Origin: Bacteroidota bacterium
GTDB taxonomy: Bacteria > Bacteroidota > Bacteroidia > UKL13-3
Reading direction: 5' to 3'
Length of the DNA stretch: 64,000 bases
Assembly (NCBI GenBank): GCA_027487835.1
Contig: JAIYCU010000029.1
Span: 1-64,000, forward strand
Part shown: positions 56,261 to 64,000 of the stretch, piece by piece
How positions within the stretch are numbered: position 1 is the first letter of the stretch
How the letters are laid out: the number at the start of each line of letters is the position of its first letter
Notes under the pieces: model-generated
What the model saw: only the letters and a program-made list of their open reading frames with translations
The model's database searches: none
Told to the model about the DNA's origin: nothing
Made by a program: the position numbers and the translations under genes

Positions 56261-56419
56261 GGTATGTTTAAATATTCGGAGACGAAATTACGCAATTCAA
56301 TTAGATTTGAGTTCATCGCTTTTTTTTGTTGATTCATCTACATTTGTTAGGTAAACAGCCTCAAGCCATTTAACCTTGTGTGGTGGTTTATACCTTTGTC
56401 TCATCAAATAGTTGAAAAT

Positions 56420-57160
56420 ATGAAAAACGCAGGTGATATGAATCCAGGTCCGCAGCGCTCTAGAGCGCTTGGAGGGGTTGTTTTAATTGTAATAGGTTTA
56501 TTGTTTTTTGCCAGAAAACTGGGCATTGAATTTCCAGATTGGTTATTTACTTGGCCAATGCTTTTAATTGCGCTTGGTATATACATCAGCGCTAAACATA
56601 ATTTTAAAAACCCAGGTGGTTTTATTTTAATGATCATTGGAGGCGTTTTTTTAACAGAGCGCTTTTATCCAGATTTTAGAATTCATGAATTCTTTTGGCC
56701 TACCTTTTTAATTGTTATGGGTGTGGTCTTATTATTTAAGCCTAGAAGAACTAGAAATATTGAGGATTATTCCAAATGGGATGAAAAGAACAATTGCTAT
56801 GGTTCTGCAGATTCTACCGATCAAACCATTGAGGTGAATAGTATTTTGGCAGGTGTAAAAAGAAATATCTTAAGCAAAGACTTTAAAGGTGGGGAGGTAA
56901 ATTGCGTGATGGGTGGAGCCGAATTAAATTTTATGCATGCCCAGATTGTAGGCACTGCAGTTTTAGAAATGAACCAAGTATTTGGTGGGGCAAAGCTAAT
57001 TGTGCCAGCCAATTGGGAGATAATCTCTGAAATAACTGTTGTATTAGGTGGTGTGGAAGATAAAAGACAATTAATTGGGAGTTTTAGCCAAGAACAAAAA
57101 CCTATATTAATACTTAAAGGAGCTTGTGTTTTTGGAGGGATAGACATTAGAAGTTACTAA
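56420..57160 (+). CDS. LiaF-like / DUF5668 membrane protein
   Basis: 246 residues. Four short hydrophobic segments (about 15-115: GGVVLIVIGLLFFARKLG, WPMLLIALGIYISAK, GGFILMIIGGVFL, WPTFLIVMGVVLLF) form the LiaI/LiaF-type membrane unit. A beta-helical C-terminal half follows with the repeating pattern GGxxxN/FMGGAELN, CVFGGIDI, typical of the cell-wall-active antibiotics response domain. ATG 56420 is favoured (MKNAGDMNPG); the frame runs further back. Upstream of a LytS/LytTR system, where LiaF-like proteins often serve as signal partners. Confidence 0.85.
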   Translation: MKNAGDMNPGPQRSRALGGVVLIVIGLLFFARKLGIEFPDWLFTWPMLLIALGIYISAKHNFKNPGGFILMIIGGVFLTERFYPDFRIHEFFWPTFLIVMGVVLLFKPRRTRNIEDYSKWDEKNNCYGSADSTDQTIEVNSILAGVKRNILSKDFKGGEVNCVMGGAELNFMHAQIVGTAVLEMNQVFGGAKLIVPANWEIISEITVVLGGVEDKRQLIGSFSQEQKPILILKGACVFGGIDIRSY

Positions 57161-57177
57161 AAATTAAGTTAGCCTAT

Positions 57178-57540
57178 ATGAAAATATTTTTAGCCAAGAT
57201 TATTTATAAAATTGTTAAACCTTTTGAGGAAGGCATTGAGCAGTACGATGAGCAACTTTGTTTTGTAAATGCCCGCGATTCTCATGAGGCTTTTTTTAAA
57301 GCTCGCATGTTGGGGGTTAAAAATGAAGATGAAATAAAACATGAAAACGGTACATCTATCCTTTGGAAGTTTATTGATGTACCCTATCTTAAAGAAATTA
57401 CCTCGTTTGAAGATGGTTTAGAATTACATTCCTCTGTGTTAGAAAAGGAGCCTTCAGAGGCTTACGAGAAGTTTATTAAAGCGAGGGCTTCTGAGCTTCA
57501 AACTACCATAGAAGTAAACTTACATTCGCTTTTATTGTGA
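57178..57540 (+). CDS. DUF4288-like small protein
   Basis: 120 residues, soluble. It begins MKIFLAKIIYKIV and has CFVNARDSHEAFFKARMLG (about 28-46) and ILWKFIDVPYLKEI (about 61-74), which match my recollection of DUF4288 proteins. No catalytic motif. It overlaps the histidine kinase gene by 4 bases (GTGA), so it is translated with the two-component system. Confidence 0.75.
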   Translation: MKIFLAKIIYKIVKPFEEGIEQYDEQLCFVNARDSHEAFFKARMLGVKNEDEIKHENGTSILWKFIDVPYLKEITSFEDGLELHSSVLEKEPSEAYEKFIKARASELQTTIEVNLHSLLL

Positions 57541-58571
57541 TCCAAGGATTAACCTTAAAAAGAGTAATTTTTGCCTATACCAACTTTTGGGTGGTATGGC
57601 TGCTTATACATTTTTATGTGTTAATAGACTTTAATATTCCTATTGAGATTGCCATAATAGATGCTCTTATTTCGCAGTTTTTTTTCTTATTGGTGTCTGG
57701 GATTTTATTTGTTACACTAAAGTATTATCAACCTACAGAAGGAAACTTTTTTTATCTCCGTATTTGGTCGTTTTTAATTGCCATTGGCGCCACTGCAGCT
57801 ATTTATGAAACTTTAAAAGTTTGGTTTGAACCAAATCTAGTTTATATTGAGTTTTTGAGTGATTCTTTAATCATTAGGTTTTTATTTCAAGTGGTTTTAG
57901 TTGGAATGGTCACTGTACTTTTATGGTTAATGTATTTTACTTCGCTTGATAAAAGCTTAAATGAAAGAAGAAAGAGATTAGAAGACGCAGCAAAAGAAGC
58001 CGAACTCTACAACCTCCGCCAACAATTGCAACCTCATTTTTTGTTCAATAGTTTAAACTCTATTAGCGCTTTGGCAGGCTCAAAGCCAGAATTAGCCCGC
58101 ACCATGGTACAACAGCTTTCTGAGTTTCTTAGACATACGTTAAAGAAAGATGAGAAGCAATTAGTAAGCCTTAAGGATGAATTGTATCAACTCAATTTAT
58201 ACCTTCAAATTGAAAAGGTACGTTTTGGTCATCGCTTGCTTACCTCGGTTCAAACCAACCCTAATTGCGAAACCTTATTATTGCCAGTATTGGTGCTTCA
58301 ACCCTTGGTAGAAAATGCAATTAAGTTTGGTTTATATGATACTTTATTCGAAGTGTTAATTTCTGTTAACGCATCTTGTAAGGAAGGAAAACTAATCGTA
58401 GAAATTACCAACCCTTTTGATCCTGCTACCTCTCAAGCTGCTGCTGGTACTGGGTTTGGATTAGATTCAATTAACCGAAGACTTTACTTACTTTATGCCA
58501 GAAATGATTTGGTAGAAACTTTTATTAAGGATAACCTATTTACCGCACGCATTACCATACCCCAACTATGA
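57537..58571 (+). CDS. LytS-family sensor histidine kinase
   Basis: 344 residues. Four transmembrane helices (about 12-135) precede a coiled linker and the His_kinase domain with the phosphoacceptor in QLQPHFLFNSLNSI (His167). The ATPase half has the N box LQPLVENAIKFG (about 260-271) and GTGFGLDSINRRL (about 299-311). GTG start overlaps the previous stop. Partner of the LytTR regulator that overlaps its 3' end by 4 bases. Signal unknown; the adjacent LiaF-like protein suggests envelope sensing. Confidence 0.95.
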   Translation: MIQGLTLKRVIFAYTNFWVVWLLIHFYVLIDFNIPIEIAIIDALISQFFFLLVSGILFVTLKYYQPTEGNFFYLRIWSFLIAIGATAAIYETLKVWFEPNLVYIEFLSDSLIIRFLFQVVLVGMVTVLLWLMYFTSLDKSLNERRKRLEDAAKEAELYNLRQQLQPHFLFNSLNSISALAGSKPELARTMVQQLSEFLRHTLKKDEKQLVSLKDELYQLNLYLQIEKVRFGHRLLTSVQTNPNCETLLLPVLVLQPLVENAIKFGLYDTLFEVLISVNASCKEGKLIVEITNPFDPATSQAAAGTGFGLDSINRRLYLLYARNDLVETFIKDNLFTARITIPQL

Positions 58572-59305
58572 AAAAATATACTTGCCTAGTAATTGATGAT
58601 GAGCCATTGGCTAGAATGATGGTGATGGAATACCTTCAAGATTTTGAACAAGTAGAGGTACTAGCAGAATGTAATGATGGATTTGAAGGAATGAAGGCAA
58701 TTGCAGCTTTACAACCTGATTTTATTTTCTTAGATATACAAATGCCTAAGATAAATGGATTTGAGCTATTAGAATTACTGGAGGAGCCACCTGCTGTAAT
58801 TTTTACAACAGCCTTTGATGCCTATGCAATGAAAGCTTTTGAAGCCAATGCCATTGATTATTTACTAAAACCATTTAGCAAGGATAGGTTTGATAAAGCA
58901 ATAGTTAAAGTTATCGCTCAGCTGGGCTCAAACATACAAACCACTAACATTTCTGCTGCCACAGATGCTTATTTGGATAAGCAGGAAATGTTGAGCAGAA
59001 TTGTTGTTAAACATAACCATGTGGTTAGAATCTTAGCCTTACAAGACTTAATTTATCTTGAGGCTTACGGAGATTATATAAAGTTACATACTGCAGATGG
59101 TGTTTTCTTAAAGAAAAAGACCATGAGTTATTTTGAAAGTCATTTGAACGAGCAAGAGTTTATCAGGGTTCATAGAAGTTATATAATCCCAACACAATCT
59201 ATCATTAAGATTGATCCCCCAGATTTTGTTATTTTAAAAGGAGGGAATAAAATTCCAATTAGTAAAACGGGTTACAGCAAACTCAAGCTGGCATTGGGGA
59301 TGTAA
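58568..59305 (+). CDS. LytTR-family response regulator
   Basis: 245 residues. Receiver domain (1-120) with IDDEP (acidic pocket), phosphoacceptor Asp56 in FLDIQMP, TTAFDAYAMKAFE and LLKPF (Lys about 103). The LytTR DNA-binding domain (about 140-245) has DLIYLEAYGDYIKLHT and FIRVHRSYIIPTQ. These domains bind paired 9-bp direct repeats spaced about two turns apart; TGATAATT pairs lie just downstream at 59334 and 59354, suggesting it controls the next three genes. Confidence 0.95.
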   Translation: MKKYTCLVIDDEPLARMMVMEYLQDFEQVEVLAECNDGFEGMKAIAALQPDFIFLDIQMPKINGFELLELLEEPPAVIFTTAFDAYAMKAFEANAIDYLLKPFSKDRFDKAIVKVIAQLGSNIQTTNISAATDAYLDKQEMLSRIVVKHNHVVRILALQDLIYLEAYGDYIKLHTADGVFLKKKTMSYFESHLNEQEFIRVHRSYIIPTQSIIKIDPPDFVILKGGNKIPISKTGYSKLKLALGM

Positions 59306-59308
59306 GAA

Positions 59309-59361
59309 AATTATCATAAATAAATTGCAAATATGATAATTATGCTATTATTTTGATAATT
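59309..59361 (+). promoter_or_regulatory. Three TGATAATT boxes, candidate LytTR binding region
   Basis: TGATAATT occurs at 59334-59341 and 59354-59361 as direct repeats with a 20-base period, and in inverse orientation (AATTATCA) at 59309-59316. They fill the 71 bases between the LytTR regulator and the first of three secreted-protein genes. The spacing fits LytTR dimers on one face of DNA. A TATTTTG near-match to the -7 box lies between them. Confidence 0.5.
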
Positions 59362-59376
59362 CATAATAATAGCAAC

Positions 59377-59820
59377 ATGAAAAAATTTAAACAACCAAAT
59401 CTTAACCCTTTTAAGCCAATCAGGGTATTAGCTTTTTTAAGTGCAATGGCATTTGCACCATTTTTAAGTAGTGCAGGCACACCTTCTAACACAAATGGAA
59501 AGGAAAAATTATCACCCAAACGAGAGATAATTGTATGGTGCGAAGTAAGAGGAATTTATTCACGTTACACGGGCTATGATGGCGTTTTAACCCATGTTTG
59601 TAGCTTTGTAAGCGTAAATGAAATTTGTTACTATGTGCCATGTGGTGTGATGGAGGCAGAAATTCTACCAAAAATGAAACCTGCTTTTCAGCCCCCTGTA
59701 TTTATTGAACAAACAGGCAATGATTTTTACCTTTTAGTGCCTAACAAAAATGGGTATGAGGTTATTCCAATGCGAAATCCAATTATTAAAGTGAATGATA
59801 AGTCAATTGTCATTATGTAA
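59377..59820 (+). CDS. Secreted protein of unknown function (first of three)
   Basis: 147 residues with a long basic leader and hydrophobic signal (KPIRVLAFLSAMAFAPFLSSAG, in part) cut after about residue 33. The mature part has four cysteines (WCEV, HVCSF, ICYYVPCGVM), likely disulfides, and a beta-rich C-terminus ending KVNDKSIVIM. No family is recognised. ATG 59377 follows the TGATAATT boxes. Upstream in-frame codons are unlikely to be used. Confidence 0.72.
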   Translation: MKKFKQPNLNPFKPIRVLAFLSAMAFAPFLSSAGTPSNTNGKEKLSPKREIIVWCEVRGIYSRYTGYDGVLTHVCSFVSVNEICYYVPCGVMEAEILPKMKPAFQPPVFIEQTGNDFYLLVPNKNGYEVIPMRNPIIKVNDKSIVIM

Positions 59821-59850
59821 ATTTTATTCACCTAATAATTTTAAGCAAAC

Positions 59851-60294
59851 ATGAAAAACCTACTTATTTTAATTTCTTTTCTAATGCCATTTGCTGCTTT
59901 TGCAGGAAATGAGCCCACTTCAAATTCTCAAATTACTGCTAAAACAAAGAAGTTGCCAGATTTAAAAGTGCTGCTTCGGGGCACTCCTTATGCTAAATCG
60001 GTAGGTCACGGCGGCTTTGCCTTGCAATGTCTTTATCCTTTTGATAGGGAGTGCATGTTAATTATATTGAAAGGTCCAGCAATAGATGGAGAGAAGGTTG
60101 CCGTTCTAAAAGCTGCTGGTGTAGAAGTTCCGCCAATTGCTGAATACATTGAGGAGAATACTACTTATGTAGGGTTCGTAAATCAAACCGGCTCACTCAA
60201 ATACTATCAAATACAGAATTATAAAGTTTCGATTGTTGATGGTATTTTTCAATTAGAGGTCTTTGATTTAAACACCCAATTTGAAATCAGATGA
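59851..60294 (+). CDS. Secreted protein of unknown function (second of three)
   Basis: 147 residues. Signal peptide MKNLLILISFLMPFAAFAG. The mature part has two cysteines (LQCLYPFDRECML) and a two-domain-like layout, ending QLEVFDLNTQFEIR. It matches the first gene's protein in length and general plan (secreted, short, paired cysteines) without obvious sequence identity. No family is recognised. It overlaps the next gene by 4 bases. Confidence 0.7.
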   Translation: MKNLLILISFLMPFAAFAGNEPTSNSQITAKTKKLPDLKVLLRGTPYAKSVGHGGFALQCLYPFDRECMLIILKGPAIDGEKVAVLKAAGVEVPPIAEYIEENTTYVGFVNQTGSLKYYQIQNYKVSIVDGIFQLEVFDLNTQFEIR

Positions 60295-61718
60295 AGCGTT
60301 CTTTGATAATATTTTTATTGCAAGTATGCTCATTTGCTGCTTTTTCAAAATACCAGCAATACATAGTGGTTTCCTTTGCAGGCTGCGCTAATTGTTCAAA
60401 TGCTTTAAGGATCTTTGCCAAAGATAGCCGAGTGTTTGAAAAAACAATTTTGTTGTCTGACCCTAGTGCTGTTACCAAAGCACAACTTGTAAATATTGCT
60501 ATAGAAAATTTTGGGGTGCATTTCAACGCTTATAAATTGGATCAAACCTTATATCAAAAGTTTACTAATGGAGAAATACCAAAACTTCCCTATTTTATCA
60601 TCACCGATGGCAACGAAATCGTGGTTAAAATTAGAATTGATAGTTTGATGGATAATATTGGCATCCTAAATTTTTTTGAGAAATTGCCAGGTAAAGCAAT
60701 TACCAAAGTGCATAATAATACTAGGTTAAAGCAAATTGGTGGATATGCAGATTTATCTATTAATGGCAATATGGCTTTGGTAAAGTATTATAACAAAAGT
60801 GATAGGGCTTATCTTTATAATTTGTCAAATGGGAACATCGATTCACTTTACTTTTCTAAAAATAAGGCACTCCTTCAACTGCTGTTAATTAAGGCCGGAG
60901 ATACAGCAACTAATCCAGCTTCAACGCTTGAGTTGTTTGAACAATATAACTTGCCATTTAACTTATATCAGTTGGGAAGAGGCAATGCTACAAAGGATGG
61001 ATTTATATTTTCTAATAACTTGTTATACGTAAATGTAGATGAAATTGATACCATGATTTCTCCTAAATGGCTTCAATATCTAGTGGATTTTAACATAGAG
61101 AACCAAAAAACCACTTTTCTAGCTTTAAAAAATTGGCATGATACCTTGTTAAGGCCACGTGCGTTTTTAAACTACTATTTAGACGATTATCTCTATCAAA
61201 AGTTAGATAGCGTCCATTGGATGGCTAGCGCAAGGTTAAAGGACAGCCAATCCAAGGGGCAGTCAGAAATTGCATTTATCACATTTGAGCTGCAAGCAAA
61301 TGGGCTAGTTCCAATTAAGGCAACCACTTTTCCTGCTATGTTTTTGAAGGATTTTAAAAATACGCCCCTGTTAAAAGAAAATTATATTATTCAGCTAAAT
61401 TTTGAGCAAGGATTTTTATTCTTTAATGAGTCGCCACACTACAACCTTAATGGGAAGTGGAGGTCATTTTCAGATTTCAATTTGCCCCTTACTTGGATAT
61501 TAGATGCTAAGCTTATTCCTGAAACCGAAATAATTAGATTGGTAGCTAGCAATGCCCAAAAGCAAACCTATTTGTATTATCTTGACGCTTCTACCCAAAA
61601 GGTTTTGCATCAAATAAAACTTAATATAGGAGATTACAAAAGCAATGCAGTGCTCACGCAAGACAAGTTTTATTATTTAAACAAGGAAGGGATTATAAAT
61701 CAAATTGTGTTTAAATAA
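60291..61718 (+). CDS. Secreted thioredoxin-like/beta-propeller-like protein (third of three)
   Basis: 475 residues. After a signal peptide (ending AAFS) an N-terminal segment YIVVSFAGCANCSNALRIF has CANC in thioredoxin-like context, followed by LPYFIITDGNEIV (about 99-111), resembling the cis-Pro region. The remainder (about 150-475) is rich in short beta strands with repeating NGNMALVKYY and KTTFLALKN-type blades, as in six-bladed propeller sensors of Bacteroidota. I do not recognise the family. Ends at a bidirectional terminator shared with sucA. Confidence 0.72.
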   Translation: MKRSLIIFLLQVCSFAAFSKYQQYIVVSFAGCANCSNALRIFAKDSRVFEKTILLSDPSAVTKAQLVNIAIENFGVHFNAYKLDQTLYQKFTNGEIPKLPYFIITDGNEIVVKIRIDSLMDNIGILNFFEKLPGKAITKVHNNTRLKQIGGYADLSINGNMALVKYYNKSDRAYLYNLSNGNIDSLYFSKNKALLQLLLIKAGDTATNPASTLELFEQYNLPFNLYQLGRGNATKDGFIFSNNLLYVNVDEIDTMISPKWLQYLVDFNIENQKTTFLALKNWHDTLLRPRAFLNYYLDDYLYQKLDSVHWMASARLKDSQSKGQSEIAFITFELQANGLVPIKATTFPAMFLKDFKNTPLLKENYIIQLNFEQGFLFFNESPHYNLNGKWRSFSDFNLPLTWILDAKLIPETEIIRLVASNAQKQTYLYYLDASTQKVLHQIKLNIGDYKSNAVLTQDKFYYLNKEGIINQIVFK

Positions 61719-61747
61719 AAAGAGGCTGACATTAGTCAGCCTCTTTT
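61718..61747. terminator. Bidirectional terminator between secreted-protein operon and sucA
   Basis: AAAAGAGGCTGAC (61718-61730) and GTCAGCCTCTTTT (61735-61747) form a perfect 13-bp stem with loop ATTA, flanked by A and T runs, in the gap between convergent genes. Confidence 0.93.
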
Positions 61748-61748
61748 G

Positions 61749-64000
61749 TTAAATATCAAATGCTTTGTCTATAATAGCTTGTTGCTCTTTGGCATGAACT
61801 TTACTATAGCCAGTTGCTGGCGAAGCGCTCGACTCTCTAGAAATACGCTTTAGTTTTAAATTTTGATCCCAACGCAATAAGTATAACCAAGCGCCCATAT
61901 TTTTTGGCTCTTCTTGAATCCAACATATTTCTGCATGTGCATACTTTTCATATAAGGCAGCTAGTTGGTTTTCTGGCATTGGATATAGTTGTTCTAACCT
62001 TACAATGGCAACATCTTTACGCGTGTCTTTTTGTTGACGCTCTAGTAATTCATAATAAATTTTACCAGTACACATTAACACACGATTTACCTTTTTAGTC
62101 TCGGTAAAATTATCGTCTATTAATTCTTGGAAATGTCCATTGGAAAAATCTTCTAATTTGCTCACACAGGCTGGATGGCGTAATAAGCTTTTAGGTGTCA
62201 TTACTACTAAAGGCAACCTAATTTCTTTGTGTTTTAATTGTCTTCTTAAGGCATGGAAATAATTGGCAGGTGAAGTAATATTACATACTTGCATATTCCA
62301 ATTAGCACATAACTGTAAAAATCTTTCTAACCTAGCTGATGAATGCTCAGGTCCTTGTCCTTCATACCCATGAGGCAACAAAAGGGTGAGGCCACTAAAG
62401 GTTTTCCATTTGGTAGCCGCACTGGCAAGGTATTGGTCGATGATGATTTGTGCACCATTGGCAAAATCCCCAAACTGTGCTTCCCAAATGGTAAGGTCGT
62501 TTGGCCTAACCATGCTAAAGCCATATTCAAAACCCAATACCGCATATTCACTCAATAAAGAGTTATAAAATTTTACGCTACCTTTATTTAAGGCACCAAG
62601 GTTTTCGAAGATATTATAGTTTTTTTCTGAATCTTCTTGCTTGATAATGGCATGTCTATGGCTAAAGGTACCTCGTTCGCAGTCTTGCCCAGTCATGCGC
62701 ACATTGTGCCCCTCTGCACTTAAACTAGCATAGGCTAAAAGCTCTCCCATGGCCCAATCGTAGTTATCATTATCAATCATGTTTTTACGGTCTTTAAACA
62801 ACTTTTCAATTTTGTTAAAGGCCTTAAACCCTTCAGGGATATTGGTAAGAAGATGTGCTAATTCTAGGAATTCTTTTTGGCCAATTTTTGTGCCATCCGA
62901 TTTTAGAAAATCATCTTGGTTGGCAGGTCTAAAACCATCCCATAAATTTTGAAGAAAATTCTTTGGTTTTGAAGGTTCAGCTCCCTTGGCACTTTCTAAT
63001 TTTTCTTGTAAGAGTTTTCTAAAAGAACTCTCCATTTCTTTTGCTAATTCCGCTTCAACACTTCCATTGGCCAATAATTTTTGGTAGTAGAGTTCTCTCG
63101 GATTGGCATGTGAGGCAATGGCTTTATATAATACAGGCTGTGTAAACCTAGGTTCATCCCCCTCGTTGTGTCCGTATTTTCTATACCCAAGTAAATCAAT
63201 AAATACATCACTCTTAAACTCCTGACGATATTCCATTGCCAATTTCACGGTAAATATTACCGCTTCCACATCATCGGCATTTACATGAAATACGGGGCAT
63301 AAAGTTGTTTTTGCAACATCTGTGCAATAGGTAGAAGTTCTTGCATCAATATAATTAGTTGTAAAACCAATTTGATTATTAGCCACAATATGAATGCAAC
63401 CACCCACATTATAGGCTTTTAAACCTGCCATTTGCAATACTTCATACACAATGCCTTGGCCCGCTACCGAGGCATCACCATGAATAAGGATGGGTGCAAT
63501 TTTATCCTGATTACTTTGGTGTTTAAATTCCATTTTTGCCCGTGTAATTCCTTTTACAACAGGGTTTACAGTTTCTAGGTGAGAAGGATTAGGACTTAAA
63601 TTTAAATGAACCTTTTTGCCATTACTAGTGGTAATATCTGAACTATACCCTAAATGATATTTAACATCACCCTCAAAAATACCTTCATCTTCGGCTGCTT
63701 TTCCTTCAAATTCTTTGAAAATATCTTCGTATGTTTTTCCTAAAATATTTGCTAAAACATTTAAACGCCCGCGGTGCGCCATCCCTAATACAAATTCTTC
63801 AACGCCTAAATCGGCACCATACTCTATTACCGAGTCTAAGGCTGGAATTAAAGTTTCTAATCCTTCTAAACTAAAACGTTTTTGGCCAACAAATTTTGTA
63901 TGCAAAAAATTCTCAAATACACTCGCTTGGTTCAGCTTAGAAAGTACATGTCTTTTTTGTTCAATAGAAAGTTGAGGTGTGTTTTTACTTCCTTCCATTT
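61749..64000 (-). CDS. sucA: 2-oxoglutarate dehydrogenase E1 component, 3' part
   Basis: The C-terminal 749 or more residues; the gene runs off the window at 64000, so the N-terminal region is missing. Visible landmarks are FVGQKRFSLEGLETLIPALD, GMAHRGRLNVLANILGK (the ThDP-pyrophosphate region), the NPSHLETVNPVVKG and IHGDASVAGQGIVYEVLQM blocks, NNQIGFTT, and the transketolase-like C-terminal half with LLLPHGYEGQGPEHSSARLERFLQ, in blocks. It decarboxylates 2-oxoglutarate and passes the succinyl group to E2 lipoyl. Convergent with the secreted-protein operon. Confidence 0.96.
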   Translation of the reverse strand, partial: MEGSKNTPQLSIEQKRHVLSKLNQASVFENFLHTKFVGQKRFSLEGLETLIPALDSVIEYGADLGVEEFVLGMAHRGRLNVLANILGKTYEDIFKEFEGKAAEDEGIFEGDVKYHLGYSSDITTSNGKKVHLNLSPNPSHLETVNPVVKGITRAKMEFKHQSNQDKIAPILIHGDASVAGQGIVYEVLQMAGLKAYNVGGCIHIVANNQIGFTTNYIDARTSTYCTDVAKTTLCPVFHVNADDVEAVIFTVKLAMEYRQEFKSDVFIDLLGYRKYGHNEGDEPRFTQPVLYKAIASHANPRELYYQKLLANGSVEAELAKEMESSFRKLLQEKLESAKGAEPSKPKNFLQNLWDGFRPANQDDFLKSDGTKIGQKEFLELAHLLTNIPEGFKAFNKIEKLFKDRKNMIDNDNYDWAMGELLAYASLSAEGHNVRMTGQDCERGTFSHRHAIIKQEDSEKNYNIFENLGALNKGSVKFYNSLLSEYAVLGFEYGFSMVRPNDLTIWEAQFGDFANGAQIIIDQYLASAATKWKTFSGLTLLLPHGYEGQGPEHSSARLERFLQLCANWNMQVCNITSPANYFHALRRQLKHKEIRLPLVVMTPKSLLRHPACVSKLEDFSNGHFQELIDDNFTETKKVNRVLMCTGKIYYELLERQQKDTRKDVAIVRLEQLYPMPENQLAALYEKYAHAEICWIQEEPKNMGAWLYLLRWDQNLKLKRISRESSASPATGYSKVHAKEQQAIIDKAFDI

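Follow-up and report, generated by a model that had tools for sequence, protein, structure and literature searches.

In MauD/MauE and Dsb-type systems, an exported thioredoxin-fold protein acts on exported cysteine-bearing clients. In Bacteroides, NVEALA peptides are encoded beside BF3164/TolB-like propeller lipoproteins, and the DUF6520 family (PF20130) of Bacteroidota likewise consists of small, cysteine-containing proteins with a signal-like start. NHLRC2 combines a thioredoxin-like domain with an NHL propeller; according to its published description, the solved structure has a CxxC-type motif close to the propeller, the protein showed no activity in an insulin assay, and the authors noted no conserved neighbor genes in 7 bacterial genomes (PMC6107167). 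In the literature that we searched, which included few subscription journals, there was no description of an operon of the kind reported here, and neither NVEALA nor DUF6520 was found; a search for Bacteroidetes operons with thioredoxin-like domains and NHL repeats yielded only the NHLRC2 paper (PMC6107167).

The locus analyzed here lies in a 64,000-nucleotide stretch of the genome of a Bacteroidota bacterium (contig JAIYCU010000029.1; hereinafter, the window). Three consecutive genes on the plus strand, S1 (59377..59820), S2 (59851..60294) and S3 (60291..61718), encode proteins of 147, 147 and 475 amino acids, respectively, with the start of S3 overlapping the stop of S2. Each protein has a signal-peptide-like N-terminal stretch, recognized by eye; past this stretch, S1 contains four cysteines, with the core WC[DE]VRG-x24-CYY[VI]PC, S2 contains a pair, and S3 has a CANC motif at residues 32-35 within a predicted thioredoxin-like domain (residues ~20-132) that is followed by a predicted beta-propeller (~133-475). 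All three proteins score below every Pfam and NCBIfam cut-off. The sequence-only reading of this DNA had described three genes for exported proteins with paired cysteines, none of a recognized family and the last with a CANC thioredoxin-like start and a propeller-like body, and this description stands, export being judged from the signal-like starts. Its account of the surroundings is likewise confirmed by the coordinates and the Pfam matches: the three genes follow, on the same strand, a LytS-like kinase (57537-58571, plus strand; His_kinase, 1e-25) and a LytTR regulator (58568-59305, plus strand; LytTR, 7.3e-19), which are themselves preceded by a LiaF-like gene (LiaF-TM, 1.5e-22) and a DUF4288 gene (6.8e-14). 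These four genes form a block (56378..59305, plus strand) that lies outside the cassette and is present in genomes of the family and the class. Downstream, a stem-loop (61718..61747, plus strand; -21.3 kcal, z -7.6), a likely terminator, separates S3 from a gene of the sucA type (2-oxoglutarate dehydrogenase E1, named by eye; 61749..63998, minus strand), which also lies outside the cassette and is the ancestral neighbor of lytTR.

Homologs of the three genes were sought with single sequences, sequence patterns and profiles. In another genus of the same family (genome G439), S1, S2 and S3 homologs are encoded in the same order, flanked by ABC transporter and ABC-F genes (both assigned by eye), with no LytTR gene. 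The S1 homolog (L068:792-1208; BLASTP E 1e-9) retains all four cysteines, and the S2 homolog (L068:1211-1570; E 6e-4, a modest homology) retains the cysteine pair. When S1 and S2 were searched as single sequences against 60 genomes, a set that does not include G439, nothing convincing was returned outside the window, and a search of genome contigs with the S1 core pattern led to one contig, CALPIR020000067.1 (labelled as a Chitinophaga pinensis metagenome-assembled genome), and to no genome beyond G439. The S3 sequence retrieved only G010, besides its own genome, from the 60 genomes and nothing when used alone to scan the genome-contig collection; profile searches gave matches in 5 of 64, 9 of 64, 10 of 395 and 3 of 395 genomes, counts that include the source genome and rows later rejected. 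Some matches were discarded: that in G119 is short and contains two stops, that in G614 is weak and partial, those in G300 and G306 lack such an arrangement, and G010:C18 and G012:C34 are other thioredoxin-like proteins. S3-type genes were accepted in 14 genomes (G000, G010, G421, G439, G436 with two, G034, G001, G023, G028, G393, G110, G319, G069 and G426). By eye, 11 of these genomes have, immediately before the S3-type gene, one or two small genes encoding a signal-like start and a cysteine pair, and no such partner is seen in the remaining three (G010, G421 and G436). An automatic rule, applied before the discovery of G426, identified a small cysteine-pair gene upstream of 8 of 14 S3-type genes, compared to 4 of 101 other long open reading frames in the same loci, and missed the partners in G023 and G393. 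On the evidence of these comparisons, S1-S2-S3 is a real cassette, conserved as a unit, and it belongs to a recurrent arrangement in Bacteroidota, in which one or two small, probably exported cysteine-pair proteins are followed by a probably exported CxxC protein with a thioredoxin-like domain and a beta-propeller.

The pairing was also tested blind. Thirteen small proteins were combined in a profile (A8), in which S1- and S2-type sequences are pooled as a convenience given that homology between the S1 and S2 profiles was not seen (probability 3.5), and this profile was searched against 62 genomes of the family. Ten matches were better than 1e-6, in seven genomes; nine of these are members of the profile, and the only new one was G426:C231 (3.4e-7). 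The product of the next gene is an S3-type CxxC protein of 476 residues; it is 36% identical to the G023 protein and had been missed by every earlier search. In this case, the small protein by itself had predicted the pair. A further A8 match, in G034:C4 (5.6e-5), sits inside a 1379-residue frame. Seven small-protein matches were checked, and six of them, all with E-values of 0.006 to 0.05, had no S3-type neighbor (G434, G432, G435, G020, G440 and G015); in G435, a frame of 473 residues that the contig end truncates and that has no strong Pfam match comes after the small cysteine-pair gene.

Several loci show additional features. In G023, the small cysteine-pair gene (L081:3550-3834) that precedes the S3-type gene is interrupted by an in-frame stop, and intact related genes are found in G001, G028 and G426. 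G436 carries two tandem S3-type genes without a small partner (L069:1687-4751). In G010, the end of an open frame without a clear start (L038:2006-2227) overlaps the start of the S3-type gene, in the manner of the S2/S3 overlap of the window, and the frame may be what is left of a small partner gene; the same contig also carries a Fic-domain gene (8.8e-12). In G028, the S3-type gene is followed by a gene for a 382-residue exported-looking protein without a Pfam match (L094:1049-2197), perhaps a second propeller. In G012 (L084:3556-5874) and G393 (L095:3771-6187), a small-protein locus adjoins the same block of four genes, which encode a protein of 104-108 amino acids, a membrane-like protein of ~205 amino acids, a kinase (HisKA_3 in L084) and a NarL-type regulator; this block is a candidate regulator of these cassettes. 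The 104-108 amino acid proteins of the two loci are 55% identical (E 1.6e-37), belong to no Pfam family and occur in no other fetched locus apart from overlapping G393 pieces.

Two further genomes, G012 (L084) and G259 (L098), encode what we treat as split versions of the cassette, which are outside the count of 14 genomes: small cysteine-pair gene(s) are followed, in one row, by genes for a propeller-like protein (assigned by eye) and, separately, a CxxC protein. Compared with the N-terminal domain of S3, these CxxC proteins yielded a probability of 95.4 (E 1.8e-8), versus 0.1 for a LytTR profile used as a control, a result that shows them to be homologous to this domain. Domains that are fused in one place and encoded as separate neighbors in another are a usual sign of a working pair.

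The CxxC motif is present in all 14 aligned S3-type proteins (from 13 genomes, before the addition of G426) and is the only cysteine pair kept in all of them. Six of the 14, including S3 of the window, have a proline at the usual cis-proline position; because the other eight do not, many S3-type proteins may not be classical thioredoxins. A structural model of S3 built from the 14 sequences reached a pLDDT of 82.0 and a pTM of 0.75 (an earlier model from two sequences had a pLDDT of 48). In a fold search with residues 133-475, the best match was the Brat NHL propeller (Z 14.7, rmsd 3.7, 247 aligned residues), with other kinds of propellers also at Z of at least 13, and Foldseek with the whole model retrieved propellers, Vps11 and BamB among them, at low TM-scores. 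The body of S3 is accordingly modeled as a beta-propeller, in line with the propeller-like body named by the sequence-only reading. The modeled N-terminal domain has a strand-helix order that fits the thioredoxin fold, with the CxxC at a helix start, and its profile matched TlpA-type thioredoxins with an hhalign probability of 68.5; both features are compatible with a thioredoxin-like domain. Searches of this domain against PDB and Pfam gave nothing significant, the best thioredoxin-like chain being 1gh2 (E 0.16), and non-thioredoxin chains in the PDB list, including metal-binding CxxC domains, score alike. PDB searches with the S1 and S3 profiles were equally without significant matches (S1 against potempin A, E 0.27). 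No S3-type protein of the set and no small protein scanned exceeded a Pfam cut-off, and the NCBIfam search of part of these proteins produced sub-threshold matches only, such as that of the leader alone of P0022 to cittilin (E 0.0014).

By analogy, the action proposed for S3 would resemble that of MauD/MauE and Dsb-type systems in being directed, in a client-specific manner, at co-encoded cysteines; unlike those systems, the cassette includes no membrane redox partner, and S3 carries a propeller. The NVEALA/BF3164 pairs show a resemblance in that they also place small exported cysteine-containing proteins beside propeller proteins; no NVEALA match was obtained among the small proteins scanned against Pfam. 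DUF6520 proteins are similar to the small proteins of the cassettes in their size, signal-like start and cysteine content, and DUF6520 is the top, albeit non-significant, Pfam match of two of the latter, P0018 and P0019 (E 0.19 and 0.16; 12.6 and 12.8 bits against a cut-off of 25.4); for S1 and S2, no DUF6520 match was listed. Above the cut-off, DUF6520 was detected in 11 of 375 genomes of the class, in 14 loci, all of which were fetched. A MauE gene is located directly upstream of the DUF6520 gene in three of these loci (L162, L163 and L165, in G307, G387 and G049, respectively; E 5e-29 or better); therefore, small exported cysteine proteins meet thiol-redox proteins elsewhere, too. In contrast to the cassette, no S3-type protein is present among the same-strand neighbors printed for the 14 loci; in L165, a 360-residue protein without a Pfam family is encoded downstream. 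NHLRC2 resembles S3, as the latter is predicted, in the order of a thioredoxin-like domain with a CxxC-type motif and a beta-propeller, and the best fold match to the body of S3 is an NHL propeller, with the other propeller kinds close behind, as noted above. S3 differs from NHLRC2 in its signal-like start and in that S3-type genes come with small cysteine-pair genes, whereas the NHLRC2 paper describes no conserved neighbors in 7 bacterial genomes (PMC6107167). NHLRC2 was not returned when two S3 profiles (A4 and A7, both weak) were searched against PDB.

The sequence-only reading had linked the cassette to LytTR and interpreted it as an envelope response module lying next to its sensor, that is, as the output of the LytS/LytTR pair, controlled through TGATAATT boxes. 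The short distance of 71 bp, the common strand and the three copies of one 8-mer, two of them direct and 20 bases apart, are in favor of this interpretation. However, comparison with the relatives' loci points elsewhere. Regulator matches with E of at most 1e-50 were found in 18 of 60 genomes, the source genome included, and stretches of 4 to 8.5 kb were fetched for the other 17; the kinase is present in all 17, the LiaF-like gene in 16 and the DUF4288 gene in 13, but S1, S2 or S3 in none, that is, the regulator block occurs in relatives without the cassette. In seven of the eight same-genus loci, sucA ends against lytTR, with the two stop codons nearly touching; the eighth locus (L028) reaches a contig end ~290 bases beyond lytTR and, like the nine regulator loci from outside the genus, yielded no sucA. 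Because seven of the eight same-genus loci join sucA to lytTR without a cassette, the 2443-bp segment between these genes in the window (59306..61748, plus strand) is an insertion. Codon use and GC content of the cassette are those of the host, so that composition gives no sign of recent foreign origin. Reciprocally, a tblastn search for the LytTR/kinase block beside 14 other cassette-type loci, the two split ones included, was negative, the sole match being the receiver part of the NarL-type regulator in L095, and the genes thus occur elsewhere without LytTR, all three of them in G439. Judged from the loci compared, the LiaF-like, DUF4288, kinase and LytTR genes comprise the older block, and the cassette, whose LytTR neighborhood looks accidental, is an insertion in the source species.

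The boxes do not change this picture. The 71-bp spacer between lytTR and S1 (59306..59376, plus strand; GC content of 17%) contains three copies of TGATAATT, at 59309 on the minus strand and at 59334 and 59354 on the plus strand, the latter two 20 bases apart, as had been reported; TTG at 59325 and TTATTTTG at 59348 presumably constitute a near-match to a Bacteroidota promoter. The positions stand, but the boxes fare poorly as a regulatory signature. The 64-kb window contains 8 copies, compared to 6.3 expected; three copies of exactly TGATAATT appeared in 2 of 20000 shuffles of the spacer, but some 8-mer was present three times in 257 of 3000 shuffles, and the same holds for 24 of 6393 overlapping 71-bp segments taken across the 64 kb. 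The spacer folds into two hairpins. One is weak (-6.2 kcal, z -1.7), and its arms are formed by two of the boxes; the other, immediately preceding S1, is stronger (-13.1 kcal, z -5.0) and carries the remaining box in its tip. Conservation of the boxes upstream of orthologs, which the sequence-only reading implied, is not seen: the arrangement is absent from all 12 other S3-type loci, none of which has more than one exact box within 300 bases upstream (L067 and L095 have a single copy each). When one mismatch is tolerated, the counts at these loci range from none to four (four in L080, three in L081), a range that AT-rich sequence allows. G426, found later, is outside both this 12-locus count and the 14-locus count of the LytTR/kinase block. 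At most one box occurs anywhere in each of the eight same-genus LytTR loci, and in the window no box is present between the LiaF-like gene and its upstream neighbor, the likely promoter region of the block itself. Both observations that the sequence-only reading had named as refuting its interpretation were thus made: the genes are found elsewhere without LytTR, and the other S3-type loci do not keep the arrangement of boxes. This LytTR may have come to control the genes once they were inserted; as an explanation of the cassette, an output of LytTR is very improbable.

The reading that we prefer, at a probability of about 0.5, is that S1, S2 and S3 constitute a self-contained operon in which S3 is the dedicated thiol-disulfide partner of its clients S1 and S2 outside the cytoplasm. 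Under this scenario, all three proteins would be exported, the propeller of S3 would hold the small partner, and the CxxC would form, shuffle or keep reduced the cysteine pair of S1 or S2, the action of S3 being oxidation, isomerization or reduction. Against this assignment stand the scarcity of the cis-proline, the three of 14 genomes without a small partner, the modest homology of S2 together with the lack of visible relatedness between S1 and S2, the non-significance of the 1gh2 match, which non-thioredoxin chains equal in score, and the published result that the similarly built NHLRC2 is inactive in an insulin assay (PMC6107167). Both the cis-proline missing in 8 of 14 proteins and the NHLRC2 precedent would fit S3 being a non-redox scaffold or adhesion protein, with the CxxC as a structural disulfide and the small proteins as surface components assembled with S3; given, however, that the CxxC is the one pair kept throughout, and is kept also in the separately encoded proteins, this seems to us distinctly improbable.

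A role of S1 and S2 as secreted effector, competition or signaling proteins, with S3 as a receptor, immunity or quenching protein whose propeller binds them and whose CxxC opens their disulfide, would agree with the patchy distribution, the strong divergence of the small proteins, their number of one or two per S3 and the insertion between conserved genes; nevertheless, no toxin, bacteriocin or pheromone family was found above the cut-off among the cassette proteins scanned, and no exporter gene recurs in the cassettes inspected, and we view such a role as unlikely. The cysteine pairs in the small proteins and in their partner could also serve to bind or hand on a soft metal (copper, for instance), the propeller acting as a scaffold, and metal-binding domains of copper- and cadmium-ATPases are indeed among the PDB matches of the N-terminal domain (E 0.3 to 1.7). 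These matches are not significant, though, and thioredoxin-like chains score alike; moreover, the predicted strand-helix order fits thioredoxin, and no metal gene was seen beside the loci inspected by eye, leaving metal handling with little to recommend it. Extending the thiol-disulfide partner reading, we tentatively put forward, as a possibility that we ourselves rate as rather doubtful, an undescribed class of Bacteroidota operons in which small exported cysteine-pair proteins are encoded with their own thioredoxin-propeller protein, whose task would be to set or edit their disulfide and to hand them over; such operons would form a compact maturation system for secreted peptides of signaling or competition that appears at new genome places with the redox and propeller parts fused or split.

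The cassette is a member of a recurrent gene arrangement, of which no description was found in the literature searched, and it likely has a thiol-redox function outside the cytoplasm. The comparison of loci sets a chance neighborhood, that of LytTR, apart from a real one and what were three unrecognized genes become a pairing that recurs and can be tested. Should the partner act on the small proteins, the cassette would be a client-specific redox system outside the cytoplasm whose operon has no gene for the usual membrane component, and unnamed small exported proteins of Bacteroidota would gain a first biochemical hypothesis.
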